Source: Branchiibius hedensis (GTDB lineage: Bacteria > Actinomycetota > Actinomycetes > Actinomycetales > Dermatophilaceae). From it: 64,000 bases of DNA. Every line of letters starts with the position of its first letter. Within the stretch, counting starts at the first letter, position 1. Below, in pieces: positions 8,921 through 17,507 of the stretch. The position numbers and the translations under genes were made by a program. Location of the stretch: the NCBI RefSeq assembly GCF_900108585.1, contig NZ_UESZ01000001.1, forward strand, positions 1,054,001 through 1,118,000, read 5' to 3'. The notes beneath the pieces were generated by a model that ran no database searches, was not told the DNA's origin, and was given only the letters and a program-made list of their open reading frames with translations.

Positions 8921-9363
8921 GCCAGCGCAAACCGAAGGACAGCAAGTGGTGGGTCGATGCTGACGAGGACCCCTGGGCCTGGCGACGGGCGCTGAAGTCC
9001 AACTGGACCACGCTGATCATCTACCGCACCGTCGTGATCGTCGTCGGGCTGGCGATCGTGGTGCTCGGGGTGATTCTGTTGCCGTTCCCCGGGCCGGGTT
9101 GGCTGGTGATCTTCCTGGGATTGGGCGTGCTGGCCTCGGAGTTCGAGCCGGCGGCCAAGCTGCGGTCGTACGCGATCAAGCAGGTCAAGAAGTGGAACGA
9201 GTGGCAGAAGCAGCAGTCGCTGTGGGTGCGCGCACTGCTCGGTCTGGGTTTGTTCATCCTGATCGTTGTGCTGTTCTACGCGCTGTTCGCGATCAGTGGT
9301 GTGCCGGTGTATTTGCCTGACCCGATTGAGAATTGGCTTCGTGGCCTCCCGGGCCTTCACTGA
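8917..9363 (+). CDS. TIGR02611/PGPGW family membrane protein
   Basis: This 148-aa protein has two hydrophobic hairpin segments (about residues 37-72 and 105-127) and the family signature PFPGPGWLVIFLGL between the first two helices. The N-terminus is charged (KPKDSKWWVDADEDPW), and a basic amphipathic stretch (IKQVKKWNEWQKQQ) links the helices. The function of this actinobacterial family is not known. The ATG overlaps the pabC stop, which puts it in the pab operon. No signal peptide is present. Confidence 0.8.
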   Translation: MSQRKPKDSKWWVDADEDPWAWRRALKSNWTTLIIYRTVVIVVGLAIVVLGVILLPFPGPGWLVIFLGLGVLASEFEPAAKLRSYAIKQVKKWNEWQKQQSLWVRALLGLGLFILIVVLFYALFAISGVPVYLPDPIENWLRGLPGLH

Positions 9364-10030
9364 GCGGGCCCAGCGATTCCGCGCGCTGGTCCTTGCCGTC
9401 GCTGACACGGATCCGGACACCGTGGACCGGATCATGCGCGAGATGGGTTCACGGCGCTTCTTCCTGGCCCCACTGGCGTGGGCGGCCGGATCCGTGGTCC
9501 TCATGCTGCGCGGGATCACCCTGATCCTGACCAACTGGCGCTTGACGTTGATCCAGCTCGTTCCGGCGATGCTCATCTGGCTGGGGATGTACGAGGTGAG
9601 CCGCTACGCGCTGCACGGAGCCGAGTTACGCACGTTGTCACCAGGCTGGCTGCTCGCAGGAAGCCTGCTGATCATCGCCGCGACGATGGCCTCCTTCTGG
9701 TGCAACACGGTCTTCGCCTTCGCGATCGACGCCGTCCCGCCCACGATCCGACCCGCCATCCAGGCCACGCAGCGGCGGATCTGGCCGGTCCTGATCGCCG
9801 GTCTGCTGGGTGGAGTGCTGCTGTCCTTCGCCGCGCTGGTCCTGCCCCGGTTCGGGAAGCGGTGGGTCTTCGAAGCGGTGCTGCTGGGCACGCTCGGTCT
9901 GTTGATCGTCGCGTTCGTCGCCGTACCCGCCCGGATCCTGCAGCGCCCGCCCCGCAAGTTGCCGCCGCGGGAAGCCGTTGGCCGCACCCGGGACTATCCG
10001 AAATTCGGTGTTTCTGGTCCTCATGGTTAG
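9341..10030 (+). CDS. Membrane protein, 3' end replaced by IS256 terminal sequence
   Basis: The chromosomal part (9341-9990) encodes a protein with four to five hydrophobic segments (about residues 45-62, 67-82, 103-125, 152-170, 185-205) and an Arg/Pro-rich cytoplasmic tail. The last codons, after GRTRD, are read from the inverted repeat of an IS256-type element starting at 9991 and stop at 10030, so the natural C-terminus is lost. The GTG start at 9341 overlaps the upstream gene by 23 nt; an ATG at 9434 is an alternative. I do not recognise the family. It may still function, as the cut lies beyond the last membrane segment. Confidence 0.55.
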   Translation: MASRAFTERAQRFRALVLAVADTDPDTVDRIMREMGSRRFFLAPLAWAAGSVVLMLRGITLILTNWRLTLIQLVPAMLIWLGMYEVSRYALHGAELRTLSPGWLLAGSLLIIAATMASFWCNTVFAFAIDAVPPTIRPAIQATQRRIWPVLIAGLLGGVLLSFAALVLPRFGKRWVFEAVLLGTLGLLIVAFVAVPARILQRPPRKLPPREAVGRTRDYPKFGVSGPHG

Positions 10031-11472
10031 TACTTCTCTGCGGTGGGCCAGCGGCCTTCGAAGACGGTCGCGAAGACGTTCAGCGCTGGCTTCCATCGCA
10101 TGGTCCATCGTGCCTGCCCCTTACCGGTGGGGTCCAGTGACCGGGTCACCAGGTACAGGCACTTCAGTGCGGCGTGCTCGTTGGGGAAGTGTCCCCGGGC
10201 TCGCACGGCCCGCCGGTATCGTGCGTTCAGCGACTCGATCGCGTTGGTGCTGAACAGAATCCGGCGGATCTCGACCTCATACGCCAGGAACGGGGTGAAC
10301 TGTTCCCAGGCGTTCTCCCACAACCGGATCAGCCCGGGGTAGCGCGCACCCCATACCGCGGCGAACTTCTCGAACTCGTCCCGGGCCGCTGCCGCGGTCG
10401 GGGCGGTGTAGACCAGTTTGAGTTCCCGGGCGATCTGGTCCCAGTACTTACGCGAGGTCAGCCGGAAGCTGTTGCGCAGCAAATGGATGACACATGTCTG
10501 CACGATGGCGTCGGGCCAGGTGGACTCCACGACCTCGGGTAACCCTTTGAGCCCGTCACAGACCACGAACATCGTGTCAGTGATGCCGCGGTTCTTCAGC
10601 TCGGTCAGCACCGCCAGCCAGTACTTGGCGCCTTCGCCGTCGCCGGGGGTGCCGGCCCACAACCCCAGCACGTCCTTGCACCCATCCACGCTGACCCCGA
10701 TCGCCGCGTAGAACGGGCGGTTGGCGACTTGCCCGTCGCGGACCTTGACCACGATCGCGTCGATGAAGATCGCCGCGTACACCGCGTCCAGTGGGCGAGC
10801 TAACCATTCGGTCATCTCCTCGCTGACCCGCTCGGTGATCCGGGCGATGGTGTCCTTGGACACCGACGCACCGTAGATCTCTTCCAAGTGGGCACTGATC
10901 TCCCCGGTCGTCAGCCCCTTGGCGGTCAGCGACAGCACCAGGGTGTCCAGGCTGGCGAGCTTGCGGTGATGTTTGGGCACGATCACCGGCTCGAATGTGC
11001 CCGCCCGATCCCGCGGGACGGTGATCTCGACCTTGCCGGCCGAATCGGTCATCACCGTCTTGGTGCGCGAACCATTGCGCACATTGCGCTGCTGGTCCAC
11101 CGGCACGGTCGCACCCGCCTCATCGGTCGACGGGTGGTGCTTGGGATGACCCAGGTGCTCGGTCATCTCCTCCTCCAGGGAGGTCTCCAGCACCATCTTG
11201 GTCAGCTTCTTCAACAACCCTTGCGGCCCGGCGATCGGGTCACCGTTGGCACGGGCCTGACGCACCAACGCAGCGATCGCCTCCTGCTCAGCCCGTTCGG
11301 CCTCCGAGCGCTTCGGTCGACGATCCCGCGGCCGCTTGCGACCAGCCGTGTCGTCCCGGGCCGGCTCGATCTGCTCCTGATTCATGCCCTGCAGTGTCAT
11401 GCGTGCCTACTCCGATCCCGCCCACAGCCGTGGGCGTGTCACGGACCAGAAACACCGAAACTGCGATAGTCC
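9991..11472. mobile_element. IS256-family insertion sequence, 1482 bp
   Basis: Its ends are 30-bp inverted repeats (9991-10020 and 11443-11472) that match at 26 of 30 positions: outer GGACTATC and inner TTCGGTGTTTCTGGTCC are identical in both. A single transposase gene on the minus strand fills the interior. No 8-9 bp target duplication is visible: the left flank ends CGCACCCG and the right flank begins CCAAGTGG. This suggests that flanking DNA was rearranged after insertion. The left end interrupts a chromosomal membrane-protein gene. Confidence 0.88.
10027..11400 (-). CDS. IS256-family transposase (Transposase_mut)
   Basis: This 457-aa transposase is full length for the family. It has an N-terminal DNA-binding region, the Asp of FIDAIVVKVRDG (about residues 205-216), the second Asp in VVCDGLKGLPEV (about 270), the zinc-type TCVIHLLRNS stretch that follows, and the catalytic Glu in STNAIESLNARYRRA (about 385). 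The DDE triad is intact and no frameshift is seen, so the element may be active. The last codons lie just inside the left terminal repeat. An internal ATG 15 nt downstream is an alternative start. Confidence 0.93.
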   Translation of the reverse strand: MTLQGMNQEQIEPARDDTAGRKRPRDRRPKRSEAERAEQEAIAALVRQARANGDPIAGPQGLLKKLTKMVLETSLEEEMTEHLGHPKHHPSTDEAGATVPVDQQRNVRNGSRTKTVMTDSAGKVEITVPRDRAGTFEPVIVPKHHRKLASLDTLVLSLTAKGLTTGEISAHLEEIYGASVSKDTIARITERVSEEMTEWLARPLDAVYAAIFIDAIVVKVRDGQVANRPFYAAIGVSVDGCKDVLGLWAGTPGDGEGAKYWLAVLTELKNRGITDTMFVVCDGLKGLPEVVESTWPDAIVQTCVIHLLRNSFRLTSRKYWDQIARELKLVYTAPTAAAARDEFEKFAAVWGARYPGLIRLWENAWEQFTPFLAYEVEIRRILFSTNAIESLNARYRRAVRARGHFPNEHAALKCLYLVTRSLDPTGKGQARWTMRWKPALNVFATVFEGRWPTAEKY

Positions 11473-11507
11473 CCAAGTGGATTTGGCCCCGGGATGACGG
11501 CCTGACT

Positions 11508-11580: not shown

Positions 11581-12732
11581 TCAGTGGTGCGGGGGTGTGT
11601 CGGGGTCGCCGCCCATCGTGTGCAGCATGCTGGTTCCGCCGCTGCGGACGAACCGCGCGCACAGCAGGGCTGCGAGGGTCAGGAAGGCGATGTTGAGCCA
11701 GGCGGTGTAGTTCCAGCTGATTCCGGCGTCTCCGGTGAAGGCGTGCCCGGAGGCTGGGACGAGGTGGGCGAGTTGGAAGAGGATCTCGACGGCGTACCCG
11801 GCTGCCACCATGCAGATGTAGAAGACGCCGGTGATGCGTAGGGTCATGGTCCACCCGTAGTACTTGCGGTAGATGGCCAGGATGGGCAGGATCAGCAGGT
11901 CGGCGAATAGGAACGACACGACGCCGCCGAAGCTGATGCCGCCGTTCCACAAGACCGCCGCTAGCGGAACGTTGCCGATGGAGCAGACGAAGCTGGCGAT
12001 CGCGATGACGGGGCCGATGATCGGCCCCCAGATCGCCGACCAGACCGGGTGACCGTTCAGGAACAGGTGCTGCCAGAAGCTCTGCGGTACCCAGGCGGCG
12101 ACTGCGCCGGCGATCAGCAGCCCGATGACGATGTCGCGGATGACTGCGGCCCACTCCATCACGAAAATGTGACTCACGGCGGTGATCCCGCGCGGAGAGG
12201 CGAGCCGGGACCAGAGCGAACCCTCGCCGGTGATGGACATGTCCATCGCGGCGTGGCCTTCCATGGACCCGGCGATCCCTTTGTCGGCTTGGGTGCGGGC
12301 GTCGCGGATCAGTTTGTCCCGCAGCACGATCCGGAACACCAGGGCGACCAGGATGATGATGATGGGGCCGCCGACGAACTCGGCCAGGGTGAACTGCCAG
12401 CCCAGCAGCAGCGCCAGGATGATGCCGAGCTCGACGACCAGGTTGGTGGAGGCGATCTCGAAGACCATCGCCGCGGTGAAGCTGGCACCCTTGCGAAACA
12501 GCGACCGGGCCAAGGCGACCGCGGCGTACGAGCACGACGAGGAGGCGACGCCGAGCCCGGTGGCCTTGGCCAGGGTGGCCGGGCGGTCGTCACCCAGCAG
12601 CCGGGAGACCTGCTCGCGGCGCACCACCGCTTGCACGAGGGAGGCGAGCAGGAAGCCCAGGATCAGCGACCAGCAGATCTGCCAGGCCATCATCCCGGCC
12701 ATCCGTAACGCATCGAGCACCCAGTTCAACAT
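11581..12732 (-). CDS. DUF318/ArsP-type permease, probably metal related
   Basis: This 383-aa membrane protein has about eight to ten hydrophobic segments, with two conserved Cys-containing motifs typical of this permease family: SSSCSYAAVAL (about residues 63-73) and SFVCSIGNVPLAA (about 242-254). A His/Met-containing cytoplasmic loop (MEGHAAMDM, about residues 155-163) lies between the halves. It follows the DUF1541 lipoprotein gene by 82 nt on the same strand, behind a CsoR-like operator. Copper or another soft metal is therefore the likely link; relatives include organoarsenical permease ArsP. GGAG lies about 10 nt before the ATG. The substrate is inferred from context only. Confidence 0.75.
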   Translation of the reverse strand: MLNWVLDALRMAGMMAWQICWSLILGFLLASLVQAVVRREQVSRLLGDDRPATLAKATGLGVASSSCSYAAVALARSLFRKGASFTAAMVFEIASTNLVVELGIILALLLGWQFTLAEFVGGPIIIILVALVFRIVLRDKLIRDARTQADKGIAGSMEGHAAMDMSITGEGSLWSRLASPRGITAVSHIFVMEWAAVIRDIVIGLLIAGAVAAWVPQSFWQHLFLNGHPVWSAIWGPIIGPVIAIASFVCSIGNVPLAAVLWNGGISFGGVVSFLFADLLILPILAIYRKYYGWTMTLRITGVFYICMVAAGYAVEILFQLAHLVPASGHAFTGDAGISWNYTAWLNIAFLTLAALLCARFVRSGGTSMLHTMGGDPDTPPHH

Positions 12733-12814
12733 TTCGGGTCATCTCCTCCAGCGCCGGACAGTACGCGCCGGGCGGGTCAGGTGACGCACGGGCAGCGGCT
12801 AGGGCGATCGGCTA

Positions 12815-13447
12815 CTACTTGGCTGCCTTCATCTCGTCCTGGACGACCCACTTGTGGTTCTTCATGGTCATGCCACCGGCGGTGTAGTCCACGACGTAGA
12901 CGGTTTGGTCGGTCGAACTGGTGATCGTGGCGGTCGCACCCTTCATCCCGGGCATGTGGTCCGCGGTCAGAGTCACCTTCTTGCCGTCGGGTAGCCGGCG
13001 GGTGCCGGCATCCTTGATTTCCTGTTGGACGACCCACTTATGGTCTTTGACCATCGCCCCGCCGGTGGTCGGGGTGTAGTTCACTGCGTAGGTGAAGGTC
13101 GAGTACGCGCCCACGACCGTCGCCCGGGCACCGTCCATCCCGGGCATGTGGTTCGCGGTCAAGATCACCGTGCTACCGACCGGGTACTTCGGATGGCCGG
13201 CCGGCTTCATCCCGGCCGGTACCGGACCGCTGTCGCCGTGGTGCATCGGCATCGATGACGCCATGGAGGGCATCGAAGAACTCATCGACGAGTTCATCGC
13301 CGTGTGGTCCATGGCCTGACTGGAACCGGTGGTCGCGCCCTGGCTGCCGGAGCCACCCGAGCACGCGGCCAGCACCAGAGCAGTAGCGCTGGCGGCCACA
13401 GTGAGCAGGGTTCGTCGGGGCAGTTTCGAGATCGAAGGTGTGATCAT
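12815..13447 (-). CDS. Met/His-rich lipoprotein with two DUF1541 (YdhK) repeats
   Basis: This 210-aa protein has a lipoprotein signal peptide with lipobox LAAC (Cys near residue 29). A linker rich in Met, His and Ser follows (about 44-72; for example MPMHH). Two tandem copies of the DUF1541 domain come next, at about residues 90-146 and 154-207. Each copy carries a T-A-(N/D)-H-M-P-G-M motif and ends in a (D/N)HKWVVQ block. Met/His patterns of this kind bind Cu(I)/Cu(II) in other periplasmic proteins, so an extracytoplasmic copper-binding role is likely. It is the first gene of a two-gene operon with the permease. The start codon lies so close to the predicted -10 that the transcript may be leaderless. 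Confidence 0.8.
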   Translation of the reverse strand: MITPSISKLPRRTLLTVAASATALVLAACSGGSGSQGATTGSSQAMDHTAMNSSMSSSMPSMASSMPMHHGDSGPVPAGMKPAGHPKYPVGSTVILTANHMPGMDGARATVVGAYSTFTYAVNYTPTTGGAMVKDHKWVVQQEIKDAGTRRLPDGKKVTLTADHMPGMKGATATITSSTDQTVYVVDYTAGGMTMKNHKWVVQDEMKAAK

Positions 13448-13457
13448 TCACCGAATG

Positions 13458-13474
13458 ATACCCCTAGGGGGTAT
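13458..13474. promoter_or_regulatory. CsoR-type copper operator (ATACCCC-TA-GGGGGTAT)
   Basis: A 17-bp near-perfect palindrome of A/T-rich ends around a C run and a G run, the pattern of CsoR/RcnR-family operators in copper-responsive promoters. It lies just upstream of the lipoprotein gene and overlaps a possible minus-strand -10 element (TATCAT at 13455-13460). No CsoR gene is present in the window. Confidence 0.7.
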
Positions 13475-13504
13475 GGACGTTGAGTGGGGGTTGTCGGTCG
13501 ACGT

Positions 13505-14314
13505 TCAGCTGGTCGATTGCCGCGCGTGCGCGAGCCGGTAGCTGGTGGTGCCGGTTTCGATAATGGTGCCGTGGTAAGTGAGGCGGTCCACAATCGCGGC
13601 GCACAGACGAGGGTCGGTGAAGGTGTCGGTCCACCCGGAGAAGCTCTGGTTGCTGGCGATCGCGATCGAGTTCTTCTCTTCGCGTTCGGTGAGGACCTGG
13701 AAGAGCAGTTCCGCGCCGCGGCGGTCTAGTTCCATGTAGCCCAGCTCATCAATGATGAGCAGGTCGACGCGGCCGTAGCGGGCGATCGTCTTGGCCAGGA
13801 GCTTGTCGTCGGCGGCTTCGACCAGCTCGTTCACCAACCGGGTGGCCAGGGTGTACCGGACCCGGAAGCCTTGCTCGGCAGCCGCTGTCCCGAGGCCGAT
13901 GAGCAGGTGGCTCTTGCCGGTGCCGGAGTCGCCGATCAGGCACAGCGGTTCGCCTTTGCGGATCCAGTCGCCCTTGGACAGCTGGTGGATGGTCGCGGCC
14001 TCGATCGCTGGGTTGGCCTCGAAGTCGAAGTCGCCCAACCATTTGGCCCGTGGAAACTGGGCGGCCTTGACCCGGCGGACTGAGGAGCGGCGGTCGCGGT
14101 CGTCAACTTCGGCCAGCAGCAGCTCGGCCAGGAACCCCGGGTAGGACAGCTGCTCCTTCTTGGCCACCCCGATCGCTTCATCGAGCACGCCGCGGATCGT
14201 CGGCAGTCGTAGCCGGCGGCAGGCCTGATCGACCGCGGCCAGGGCTGCTTCCTCAGTCAGACCACGCCGTCGGCGCAGGGTCGGGGTGATCGTGCTCGCG
14301 GGTGCATTGGGCAT
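13505..14314 (-). CDS. istB: IS21-family helper ATPase IstB
   Basis: This 269-aa AAA+ ATPase has Walker A GDSGTGKSH (about residues 117-125), Walker B LLIIDELGY (about 180-188) and a sensor motif IAIASNQSFSGW (about 215-226). It serves as the transposition helper that selects targets and stimulates IstA. The ATG overlaps the istA stop by one base (TGATG). Full length, no damage seen. Confidence 0.93.
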   Translation of the reverse strand: MPNAPASTITPTLRRRRGLTEEAALAAVDQACRRLRLPTIRGVLDEAIGVAKKEQLSYPGFLAELLLAEVDDRDRRSSVRRVKAAQFPRAKWLGDFDFEANPAIEAATIHQLSKGDWIRKGEPLCLIGDSGTGKSHLLIGLGTAAAEQGFRVRYTLATRLVNELVEAADDKLLAKTIARYGRVDLLIIDELGYMELDRRGAELLFQVLTEREEKNSIAIASNQSFSGWTDTFTDPRLCAAIVDRLTYHGTIIETGTTSYRLAHARQSTS

Positions 14315-16017
14315 CAGCTGGTACTCGCCTTCGTCAGATCGGCTGTCGAGGTCGCTGCCGCGGCGCGGCGGGGTAGGAGTTCGTCGTAGGCGGCCACGGA
14401 CGGCAAGGGCCGGGTGTCCGCCGGCAGGCCCGCGATGACCGCGGCCGGGTCGGTCAGGCGTCGTTGGGTGAGACTGACAACACGGTGCTCACCCACGTCA
14501 CCTTGAGCAGCGGGGTGACGGTCAGAACTGGCCCCACCTTCGCCAGCAGCGGCGGAGTCGAGGGTTGCGGCGTGTCGGCGTGCTTCGACCGCGACCACCT
14601 CGGCGGTGACCGCGCCGACCGTAAGTGCAGCGGTGATCCCGGCGGCCACCGCCTCGGCCGGCAACGACCGGTGCAGTAGCAGGACGTCGATGAGTTCCCG
14701 GGTGCCCTCGGCATCGCCGTTGACTTTCCGGGAGGCGGCCCAGAACGCGTCATGCGCCGCCGTGAACGTTCCCGCGGCCCGGGCGGCTGCCAGTGCGGTC
14801 GACCCGGGTAGCGCGCCCGGCTTGTGTTTCAACACCTCGAGGTAGTGGTCGAGGTTGACGACGTGGCCGCCGCGGGAGGCGACCCGCGGGTGGGTGGCCA
14901 CGGTGGTGTGGCCTTCGAACACGATCAGGTGCGAGGCCCGCAACGAGACCCGGACTGTGCGGCCGATCAGGTGCGCGGGGACGGAGTACTTCATCATCCG
15001 CACGGTGATCATCGCTGACCGGTCCACTCGTGGGTGCAGCACCAGCCCGGGGTCGAACCTGTCGACCGGCAACGGGGACAACATATTTTGTTCCGCCTGG
15101 TAGTCGGTGCCGATGGTGTTCAGTTTCCCGGTGATCCGCCGGCTGTCGTCGGCGGCCTCCCAGGCACGGATCTTCTCGTTCAGCTCCTCCAGCGACTCGA
15201 CTTCGGGCATCGGGGTCAGGTGGTTGCGGCGGAACCAGCCGACCTCACCTTCGACGCCGCCCTTTTCGTGCGCGCCGGCGATGCCGGGCTGGCAGTAGAA
15301 GGAGTCGAAACCGTAATGCGATTTGAACAGCACCCACCGGTCGTTCTCTTTCCGGCGGCGGTCGCCGCCGTGCAGCACGGCCAGCACTGCGGAGGTCAGG
15401 TTGTCGTACCGGATATGCCGGGTCGGGATGCCTCCGAGGGTTTCGAAGGCGTCGATGTGGCCTTCCAGGAACGCTTCCTGCGCGCACGTCGGGTACACCC
15501 GGTGGATTGCTTTCCCCGAGTATGAGAGCCGGTAGATGAACATCTGGCACTTGGTCTTCACGCCGTTGATGACGACCCAGACTTCGCCGAAATCGACCTC
15601 CGCCTCCTCACCCGGCTCGTGTATCTGTGGGACGAAGGCGGCCTCTTCGACCCGGCGACCGCCTTCGAGGTCTATTTGTGCCCGGCGGACCCGCACGTAG
15701 TCCCGCACGGTCGAGTACGACAGGCCAGTTGCGGCGTGCTCGTCGATCAACCGGGCCAGGATCCTGGTCGCGGTATGCCGCTGCTTCCTGGGCGCATCCA
15801 GATCGGCACGGAGCATGTCGTCGATCGCGTCCTTGAACGGGTCCAACCTTGGCGAGGACCTCGTCGGCGTCTTCCGTGCCGGTGGCATCGCCGACGCCAA
15901 CGCTTGCCGCACCGTGCGCCGATGCACCCCATGCCGCTTCGCTAGTTCCCGGATCGAGAGCTCCTCGACCCGTGCGTCCCGGCGGATCGCCGCGAACAAC
16001 TCCACCCGTGACTCCAT
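14314..16017 (-). CDS. istA: IS21-family transposase IstA
   Basis: This 567-aa transposase has an N-terminal HTH (IRELAKRHGVHRRTVRQAL, about residues 20-40) and an rve-type DDE core: Asp in EVDFGEV (about 140), Asp in HIRYDNLTS (about 200) and Glu in EKGGVEGEVG (about 250). A Mu-type C-terminal beta-barrel region follows. I start at the ATG at 16015-16017 (MESRVELF); the frame is open 13 codons further upstream but lacks support. The gene appears intact. Confidence 0.92.
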   Translation of the reverse strand: MESRVELFAAIRRDARVEELSIRELAKRHGVHRRTVRQALASAMPPARKTPTRSSPRLDPFKDAIDDMLRADLDAPRKQRHTATRILARLIDEHAATGLSYSTVRDYVRVRRAQIDLEGGRRVEEAAFVPQIHEPGEEAEVDFGEVWVVINGVKTKCQMFIYRLSYSGKAIHRVYPTCAQEAFLEGHIDAFETLGGIPTRHIRYDNLTSAVLAVLHGGDRRRKENDRWVLFKSHYGFDSFYCQPGIAGAHEKGGVEGEVGWFRRNHLTPMPEVESLEELNEKIRAWEAADDSRRITGKLNTIGTDYQAEQNMLSPLPVDRFDPGLVLHPRVDRSAMITVRMMKYSVPAHLIGRTVRVSLRASHLIVFEGHTTVATHPRVASRGGHVVNLDHYLEVLKHKPGALPGSTALAAARAAGTFTAAHDAFWAASRKVNGDAEGTRELIDVLLLHRSLPAEAVAAGITAALTVGAVTAEVVAVEARRHAATLDSAAAGEGGASSDRHPAAQGDVGEHRVVSLTQRRLTDPAAVIAGLPADTRPLPSVAAYDELLPRRAAAATSTADLTKASTS

Positions 16018-16063
16018 CCCCAAACCCCATCCCGTCGAACCAGTAGATGAAGCCAAGGCTCAG

Positions 16064-16153: not shown

Positions 16154-16313
16154 ACAACCACCACGTCGGCACCAACGGCAAAATCTCCCTACGCCGCGCC
16201 GGCAAAATGCACCACCTCGGCATCGGCACCGAACACCACGGCAAACCAGTCGTCATCATCGTCACCGAAACCACCGTCACCGTCATCCACCAAGGCACCG
16301 GCCACGTACTAGC
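16154..16313 (+). pseudogene. IS481-family transposase C-terminal remnant, first part (element A)
   Basis: Read from the CAC codon at 16154, the frame gives NGKISLRRAGKMHHLGIGT and then a stretch ending GTGHVL. This is the C-terminal beta domain of larger IS481 transposases. All upstream sequence was removed at the IS21 boundary. The frame is interrupted at 16313 by a second IS481 element. The remainder of the same reading frame resumes at 17414. Confidence 0.75.
16308..16313. repeat. Target-site duplication ACTAGC, left copy
   Basis: ACTAGC here and at 17414-17419 flank the IS481 element B exactly. Removing B and one copy restores the reading frame of the interrupted older transposase. Confidence 0.88.
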
Positions 16314-17413
16314 TGTACTGCCCCGGGACGTTAGGAACGGTTCTCGGCCTGTCGGCGTGACTTGAGGAAGACCTCCGGGTGAGGTGTGAAGCGACGAAGC
16401 AAACACATCCCCAAACCCGGAGGTCCTCATGGTCCACGCTAATGCCCCGCTTTCTGCGACTGGTCGCCTGCGCCTGGCGCGGTGCGTGGTGGACGATGGG
16501 TGGCCGTTGCGGCGGGCCGCAGACCGGTTCGGGGTCTCGGTCACCACCGCGCACCGCTGGGCGGCCCGGTACCGCCAGCATGGTGCGGCGGGGATGTGCG
16601 ATCGTCCCAGCCGGCCCCAGTCATGTCCGCACCGCACCAGTAGGCGCCGGGAACGGCGAGTCCTGGGGTTACGGGTTTCGCGGCGGTGGGGGCCGGCCCG
16701 GATCGCCTACCACCTGGGGATGAATCCGGCCACGGTGCACCGCATCCTGACCCGGTACCGGTGTCTTCGGTTGTCCTGGACGGACCCGGCCACTGGTGCC
16801 CCGGTACGGGCCGGTCGTCGAAAGGTGGTGCGCTACGAACGCGACGCCCCGGGTGATTTGGTCCACGTGGACATCAAGAAGCTGGGCCGCATCCCCGATG
16901 GGGGTGGACACCGGGTCCATGGCCGCGCTGCGGGGAAAGCTAACTCCCGTGCTACCTCCAGCAGTGGGCGGGGGTATGCCTACCTGCACCACGCGGTCGA
17001 TGACCACTCCCGGTACGCCTACTCAGAGATCCTGGCCGATGAGAAGAAGGAGACCGCGACCGCGTTCATGCAACGGGCGGTGGCGCACTTCGCGCAGGTC
17101 GGGATCACCACGGACCGGGTGATGACCGACAACGGGTCCTGTTACCGCTCCCACCTATTCCGGAACATGCTGCAGGACCATGGGATCACCCATAAACGCA
17201 CCCGCCCCTACACCCCGAAAACCAACGGGAAAGTCGAGCGGTTCAACCGGACCCTGACCGAGGAGTGGGCCTACGCCCGCCCCTACACCAGCGAGACCGA
17301 ACGCGCCGCCGCGTACGAGGACTTCCTGCACATCTACAATCACCACCGCGCACACACCGCGCTCAAAGGTGGCTCACCCGCAGACCGCGTACCCAACCTG
17401 GCGGGGCACTACA
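16314..17413. mobile_element. IS481-family insertion sequence B, 1100 bp
   Basis: The ends are short inverted repeats: TGTACTGCCCCG on the left and GCGGGGCACTACA on the right, which read inward share TGTA.TGCCCCG. A 6-bp duplication ACTAGC flanks both ends. One transposase gene on the plus strand fills the element. It sits inside the transposase gene of an older IS481 element. Confidence 0.9.
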
Positions 17414-17418
17414 ACTAG
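16429..17418 (+). CDS. IS481-family transposase
   Basis: This 329-aa transposase has an N-terminal HTH (about residues 13-45, RLRLARCVVDDGWPLRRAAD), a second HTH around 75-95, and an rve-type core with Asp in LVHVDIKKLG (about 144), Asp in RVMTDNGSCY (about 227) and Glu in NGKVERFNRT (about 264). The DDE triad is complete. The TAG stop at 17416-17418 is not part of the element: it lies in the target duplication just beyond the right terminal repeat, so the C-terminus depends on the insertion site. Confidence 0.93.
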   Translation: MVHANAPLSATGRLRLARCVVDDGWPLRRAADRFGVSVTTAHRWAARYRQHGAAGMCDRPSRPQSCPHRTSRRRERRVLGLRVSRRWGPARIAYHLGMNPATVHRILTRYRCLRLSWTDPATGAPVRAGRRKVVRYERDAPGDLVHVDIKKLGRIPDGGGHRVHGRAAGKANSRATSSSGRGYAYLHHAVDDHSRYAYSEILADEKKETATAFMQRAVAHFAQVGITTDRVMTDNGSCYRSHLFRNMLQDHGITHKRTRPYTPKTNGKVERFNRTLTEEWAYARPYTSETERAAAYEDFLHIYNHHRAHTALKGGSPADRVPNLAGHYN

Positions 17419-17419
17419 C
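17414..17419. repeat. Target-site duplication ACTAGC, right copy
   Basis: Right-hand copy of the duplication made by IS481 element B. It supplies the TAG stop codon of the B transposase. Confidence 0.88.
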
Positions 17420-17507
17420 CACCAACACCATCGACCCCACCCGCACCTACTGGCGCAACAACGACAAAGCGCCCGGCCGATGGCCGAGCGCTAAGCCCAA
17501 ACTATGA
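17414..17507 (+). pseudogene. IS481-family transposase remnant, last part (element A)
   Basis: After removal of element B, the frame from 16154 continues here as ATNTIDPTRTYWRNNDKAP and ends at the TGA 17505-17507. The T(I/L)DPTR.Y block is the usual closing segment of this transposase type. This confirms that element A once continued through the B insertion point. Confidence 0.75.

Follow-up and report, generated by a model that had tools for sequence, protein, structure and literature searches.

A lipoprotein gene of CopL type and a PF03773 permease gene, adjacent on the chromosome of Branchiibius hedensis, probably form one module of a scattered copper regulon, in which a RicR-like CsoR encoded elsewhere would act in trans on genes of envelope copper defence. 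We give this reading a probability of about 0.8; copper as the substrate of the permease, taken separately, is proposed with less confidence than the regulon reading as a whole. In the window, that is the whole stretch of 64 kb analysed here, the pair has the look of an orphaned copper operon, and it is the rest of the genome that makes it appear as a module of a CsoR regulon. It also joins DUF1541 and PF03773, two poorly understood families, in one putative transcription unit. This pairing supports copper as the job of this actinobacterial PF03773 clade and, if rv2963 of Mycobacterium tuberculosis falls in that clade, it would bear on the role of this RicR-regulated putative permease.

The Gene Pair and Its Operator

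Both genes lie on the minus strand and both reading frames are open and intact. The product of the lipoprotein gene (12815–13447) has 210 amino acids, with two DUF1541 stretches that correspond to PF07563 in a Pfam search (E 6e-49) and a Met/His-rich linker; no other Pfam family is found in it at E 0.001. A lipobox-like LAAC motif can be recognized by eye, and this motif, the tandem DUF1541 arrangement and the conserved HM.GM and HKW motifs are those of the CopL/YdhK type. Residues 62–208 align to the solved structures of Bacillus subtilis YdhK (4mdw, 2ky9 and 4fib, E 4.1e-47), likewise a tandem DUF1541 protein, which these entries label as uncharacterized. The permease gene (11581–12732) encodes 383 amino acids matching PF03773 (ArsP_1), which we take to be the former DUF318, with an E-value of 1.6e-71 and a score of 241.3 bits, above the Pfam cut-off of 32.3. 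Cys67 (in SSSCSY), Cys250 (in FVCSIG), His160 and Met15 are invariant in all 37 permeases compared, a pattern that fits a soft-metal substrate without proving it. The first-pass annotation had described a lipoprotein with two DUF1541 domains and a Met/His-rich linker together with a DUF318 permease bearing two Cys motifs, and both descriptions hold.

The operator, of CsoR/RicR type, is a 17-bp palindrome at 13458–13474, ATACCCCTAGGGGGTAT, which reads ATACCCCCTAGGGGTAT on the minus strand. Its core, TACCCNNNNNGGGTA, has the form TACCC-N5-GGGTA, presumably the CsoR/RicR operator consensus. One match to this core is found in the window versus 0.02 expected from shuffles, which bears out the 17-bp operator initially noticed ahead of the pair. 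The ATG of the lipoprotein lies 11 nt past the 15-bp core, and a −10-like TATCAT, recognized by eye, overlaps the operator end. A palindrome of this type is thus present at the promoter, as it would be in a CsoR/RicR-controlled operon, and we infer from the sequence that the pair is under the control of this candidate operator.

Work on Staphylococcus aureus (PMC5947656, PMC8546587, PMC10233261) describes CopL as a predicted surface lipoprotein that is repressed by CsoR; copper binding and protection from copper are reported, and mutants are copper-sensitive. In that species, csoR is encoded apart from the copper operons, and the CsoR sites resemble the TACCC-N5-GGGTA palindrome. The picture for CopL is complicated by the report that copXL restored on a plasmid could itself raise copper sensitivity. 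The copXL (copBL) operon of strain USA300 resembles the present pair in its tandem-DUF1541 CopL, its CsoR operator, its separate csoR acting in trans and its carriage on mobile elements. The partner of CopL is different, a P1B-ATPase there and a PF03773 permease here, the CopB-type ATPase of B. hedensis being encoded elsewhere on the chromosome.

Regulator and Pumps Elsewhere in the Genome

The initial statement that neither a CsoR nor a Cu-ATPase is present is correct for the window, the reading frames of which include no relative of csoR, copZ, copA or copB (phmmer with the genome's own proteins, E 1e-4). It does not extend to the genome (4.0 Mb in four contigs), where one CsoR-family gene and two Cu-ATPases stand behind the same exact operator. 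The search for csoR elsewhere, proposed as a check in the first-pass annotation, thus ended with a single gene of PF02583 (the CsoR family) genome-wide, far outside the window and followed by the gene of a CopZ-like HMA protein. The best NCBIfam model for its product is RicR (NF052430), with 143.7 bits; since this score is under the curated cut-off of 175, the regulator is only named CsoR/RicR-like. Its best match among solved structures is the CsoR of 4adz (E 2.3e-32), which we take to be the Streptomyces lividans protein. YCID and HC are kept, and the aligned Cys, His and Cys of 4adz are presumably the copper ligands. The genome therefore holds a CsoR-family repressor with the Cys-His-Cys residues, as is expected where an operon is CsoR/RicR-controlled.

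The exact operator occurs at seven sites in the 4.0 Mb, against one for the reversed control pattern. Four of these sites precede csoR-copZ, a CopA-type Cu-ATPase, a CopB-type Cu-ATPase and the CopL-permease pair. The CopA-type enzyme has an HMA domain and the CopB-type enzyme a Met/His-rich N-terminus, and the two ATPases score 521 and 564 with TIGR01511 (cut-off 397). The layout is common to the four operators, with the 15-bp core, a −10-like sequence at once and then the start codon. The distance from core to ATG is 9 nt for csoR, 10 nt for copA (counted to its second ATG), 13 nt for copB and 11 nt for the pair, and the −10-like sequences overlapping the core end at the four promoters are, by eye, TATCCT, TATTAT, TATAGGGT and TATCAT. 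These short leaders fit leaderless transcripts, which are common in actinobacteria. Around the remaining three sites, no gene like csoR, copZ, copA, copB, CopL or the permease lies within about 1.5–2.5 kb on each side. One of these three exact copies (L067:2468–2482) overlaps a tRNA-Gln gene of the genome, lying across its 5′ end.

Such an arrangement resembles the RicR regulon of M. tuberculosis, where scattered genes under one CsoR-family repressor (PMC10961391) include the putative permease gene rv2963 and lipoprotein genes, lpqS among them. The likeness extends to the B. hedensis regulator, which matches the RicR model best; its score under the RicR cut-off is a difference. We take rv2963 to be a PF03773 member, and lpqS to encode another kind of lipoprotein, apart from rv2963.

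The Pair in Other Genomes

Among 80 named CopL loci, the best 80 of 133, the permease adjoins CopL in two, namely in Flexivirga caeni, with the exact operator, and in Williamsia sterculiae, with one mismatch. All three pairs, including that of B. hedensis, have the operator, two exactly and one with a mismatch, and the pairs lacking metal operators that would have spoken against the first-pass annotation were not encountered. No IS element is seen between the operator and pair and the upstream gene in F. caeni or W. sterculiae. The upstream neighbour of the pair in F. caeni is a cation-efflux-like gene, unlike in B. hedensis. Because F. caeni (exact operator) and W. sterculiae (one mismatch) carry the pair with no IS element seen in between, a lost csoR or pump need not be assumed. 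Nor is there a need for the earlier suggestion that upstream genes of the operon may have been lost to the IS21 element next to the operator, since the operator, CopL and permease of F. caeni follow a different upstream gene.

A further 36 loci were drawn from the genus Flexivirga (G026) and the family of G140 (43 places listed, 36 with loci). The permease is found with CopL in two of these matches, both at the F. caeni and W. sterculiae positions, and no new genome was added. None of the CopL loci of other relatives (n = 14) has the permease. CopL is lacking from the stretch examined at all 33 distinct permease loci of other genomes, and at six of these loci the stretch includes a relative of csoR, copZ, copA or copB. 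Across 394 genomes of the class, DUF1541 was detected in 3, the permease (E 1e-30) in 49, and the two together only in the window's genome. In 78 relatives the corresponding numbers are 11 and 6; the window's genome has both, as does G004, where the DUF1541 gene and the permease are about 21 kb apart.

Neighbours were recorded for six query proteins (csoR, copZ, copA, copB, CopL and the permease). In the further 36 loci, CopL is followed within 400 bp by CopB at 10 and by the permease at 2; the other 24 have none of the six query proteins there. In the best 80 of 133 loci the permease follows at 2, CopB and CopA at 1 each, and no query protein at 76, and CopA stands directly upstream of CopL in 7 of them. 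By these counts copper genes look freely mixed, the CopL-permease pair being one uncommon mixture. At two permease loci (L185 and L186) the permease comes after a csoR gene, with the operator before csoR. Elsewhere, in Flexivirga meconopsidis (L075:4869–7240), a second operator comes after CopL, and then a multicopper oxidase. On plasmids of Micrococcus luteus (L210:1–8044) and Rhodococcus pyridinivorans (L211:4627–10426), CopL (YdhK family) lies beside metal ATPases, with exact operators nearby.

The 300 bp ahead of CopL contain the exact operator in 28 of these best 80 loci, versus 1, 0 and 0 for three control patterns, and the 300 bp ahead of the permease contain it in 6 of the 33 distinct loci, with controls at 0 (8 of 36 rows when three repeats are counted, L069–L071 being identical to L154–L156). 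It is absent from this interval in 52 of the same 80 CopL loci and in 27 of the 33 distinct permease loci, the upstream stretch being shorter than 300 bp in three of these 27. With two mismatches allowed, the numbers rise, those of the controls included, to 41 of the best 80 of 133 for CopL (controls 17, 5 and 4) and to 11 of the 36 rows for the permease (controls 1, 0 and 7).

The trees group the permease of the window with that of F. caeni (support 99/98), and its CopL with that of F. caeni as well (100/90). W. sterculiae lies close by in either tree, and a lone permease behind the operator (L154) falls beside it; sister Flexivirga have CopL without the permease. The three paired rows need two label changes in the permease tree and in the CopL tree; in the latter, where the bootstrap had not settled, the two changes are forced by starred branches. 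Left out of the trees were the repeats L069–L071, L212, L214, L217 and L218, and the permeases of less than 300 aa, L180 and L183. The pair may have arisen once and been split afterwards, or it may have two origins.

The Permease and Its Relatives

The likeness of the permease to the SO_0444 family of Cu/Zn efflux transporters is a weak model match, of 64 bits with NF033936, far under the cut-off of 300, and the SaoE model matches as weakly (65.5 bits, cut-off 325). In the report on SO_0444 (PMC3219624), this transporter is tied to zinc and copper both, and the predicted regulator there is ZntR-like. A search of the PDB gave no sequence relative for the B. hedensis permease at E-values up to 0.1. 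A structure prediction was tried on three sequences and set aside, its mean pLDDT of 39 being too poor for use.

A relative with 69% identity is found on a Mycolicibacterium aubagnense plasmid, beside a multicopper oxidase and with the exact operator some 50 bp before its annotated start. The copper cluster of this plasmid (L207:267–7278) comprises a metal ATPase, an MPT63-family protein, the multicopper oxidase and the permease with its operator. For other plasmid-borne relatives, in Streptomyces and Frondihabitans, the annotation shows no copper gene in the neighbourhood. Literature searches gave no title on the DUF318/PF03773 permease family for DUF318, only type VI effectors and nothing on a CopL-permease pair for PF03773 with copper, and nothing for RicR with TACCC.

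Proposed Mechanism and Alternatives

The palindrome overlaps the −10 of a promoter with a short leader. When copper is scarce, a repressor of the CsoR family, from its gene elsewhere on the chromosome, would occupy this palindrome and block RNA polymerase. Binding of Cu(I) to the Cys-His-Cys sensor would release the repressor, and the lipoprotein and permease would then be made together with CopA, CopB and CopZ, each from its own copy of the operator. The lipoprotein would bind copper on the outward side of the membrane, as proposed for S. aureus CopL, and the permease would move copper or a copper complex outwards, alongside the ATPases. The envelope copper-handling pair behind a CsoR-type operator, as first suggested, is thus probable, but not as a separate system devoid of regulator and pump, both of which the genome carries behind the same exact operator. 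A more specific division of labour can be conceived, with CopL and the permease as a dedicated ATP-independent copper export unit. The lipoprotein would there take Cu(I) from the permease on the outside, via the two invariant Cys motifs and the Met/His loop, in replacement of the CopL-CopB partnership; we consider this unlikely.

The pair could also be CsoR-regulated with only the lipoprotein handling copper, the permease moving something else, such as an arsenical, zinc, a thiol or a metallophore. PF03773 is named ArsP_1, and ArsP exports organoarsenicals; the absence of a PDB sequence relative at E 0.1 leaves room for this, as does SO_0444, matched weakly by its model and tied to zinc as well as copper (PMC3219624). 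However, permeases of the clade stand alone behind the same operator at 6 of the 33 distinct loci, one lies beside the multicopper oxidase of the M. aubagnense plasmid, and the Cys, Met and His residues are invariant, so that a substrate other than copper seems possible but doubtful.

The regulon reading, which we prefer, supposes that the promoter next to IS21 would be active. The pair might instead be a stranded remnant, its promoter cut off by IS21 and its genes silent or driven by the element. IS21 does start no more than about 35 bp from the operator, and the hexamer at the −35 distance matches the consensus poorly, but neither frame is broken, the operator is kept along with the −10-like sequence, and the −35 is weak by eye also at the F. 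caeni pair and at copA and copB of the genome; we regard such silencing as conceivable, though rather improbable. An operator serving a CstR-type persulfide sensor, with the pair devoted to sulfur stress, would look much the same, as CsoR and CstR share their operator style. The sole PF02583 protein nevertheless keeps the Cys-His-Cys of CsoR and matches RicR and CsoR best, and the other sites at copper genes precede csoR-copZ and two copper ATPases, which makes this last possibility very remote.

Flanking Insertion Elements

The IS21-family element upstream of the operator (13505–16056, minus strand) comprises istB (13505–14314) and istA (14314–16056). On its right side, six related IS21 copies are similar to it only from 13509–13526 on; the right end probably lies within 13475–13509, and the 18-nt gap between operator and IS21 given in the first-pass annotation is possible. 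The left end is near 16160. With IS21 abutting the operator, the −35 region may have been lost or replaced. An IS256-family element, also on the minus strand (9990–11473, inverted repeats 9990–10020/11443–11473), lies downstream of the permease gene, 107 bp from its stop codon. The 3′ end of the gene at 9357–10030 enters the IS256 inverted repeat, and this gene is, by this overlap, probably truncated. Left of IS21, the stretch 16160–16308 looks by eye like the 3′ part of a further transposase gene, which suggests insertion upon insertion. An IS481-type element starts at about 16309 (16309–17500), and bases 16309–16450 are repeated at no fewer than 18 other places of the genome, with 97–100% identity.
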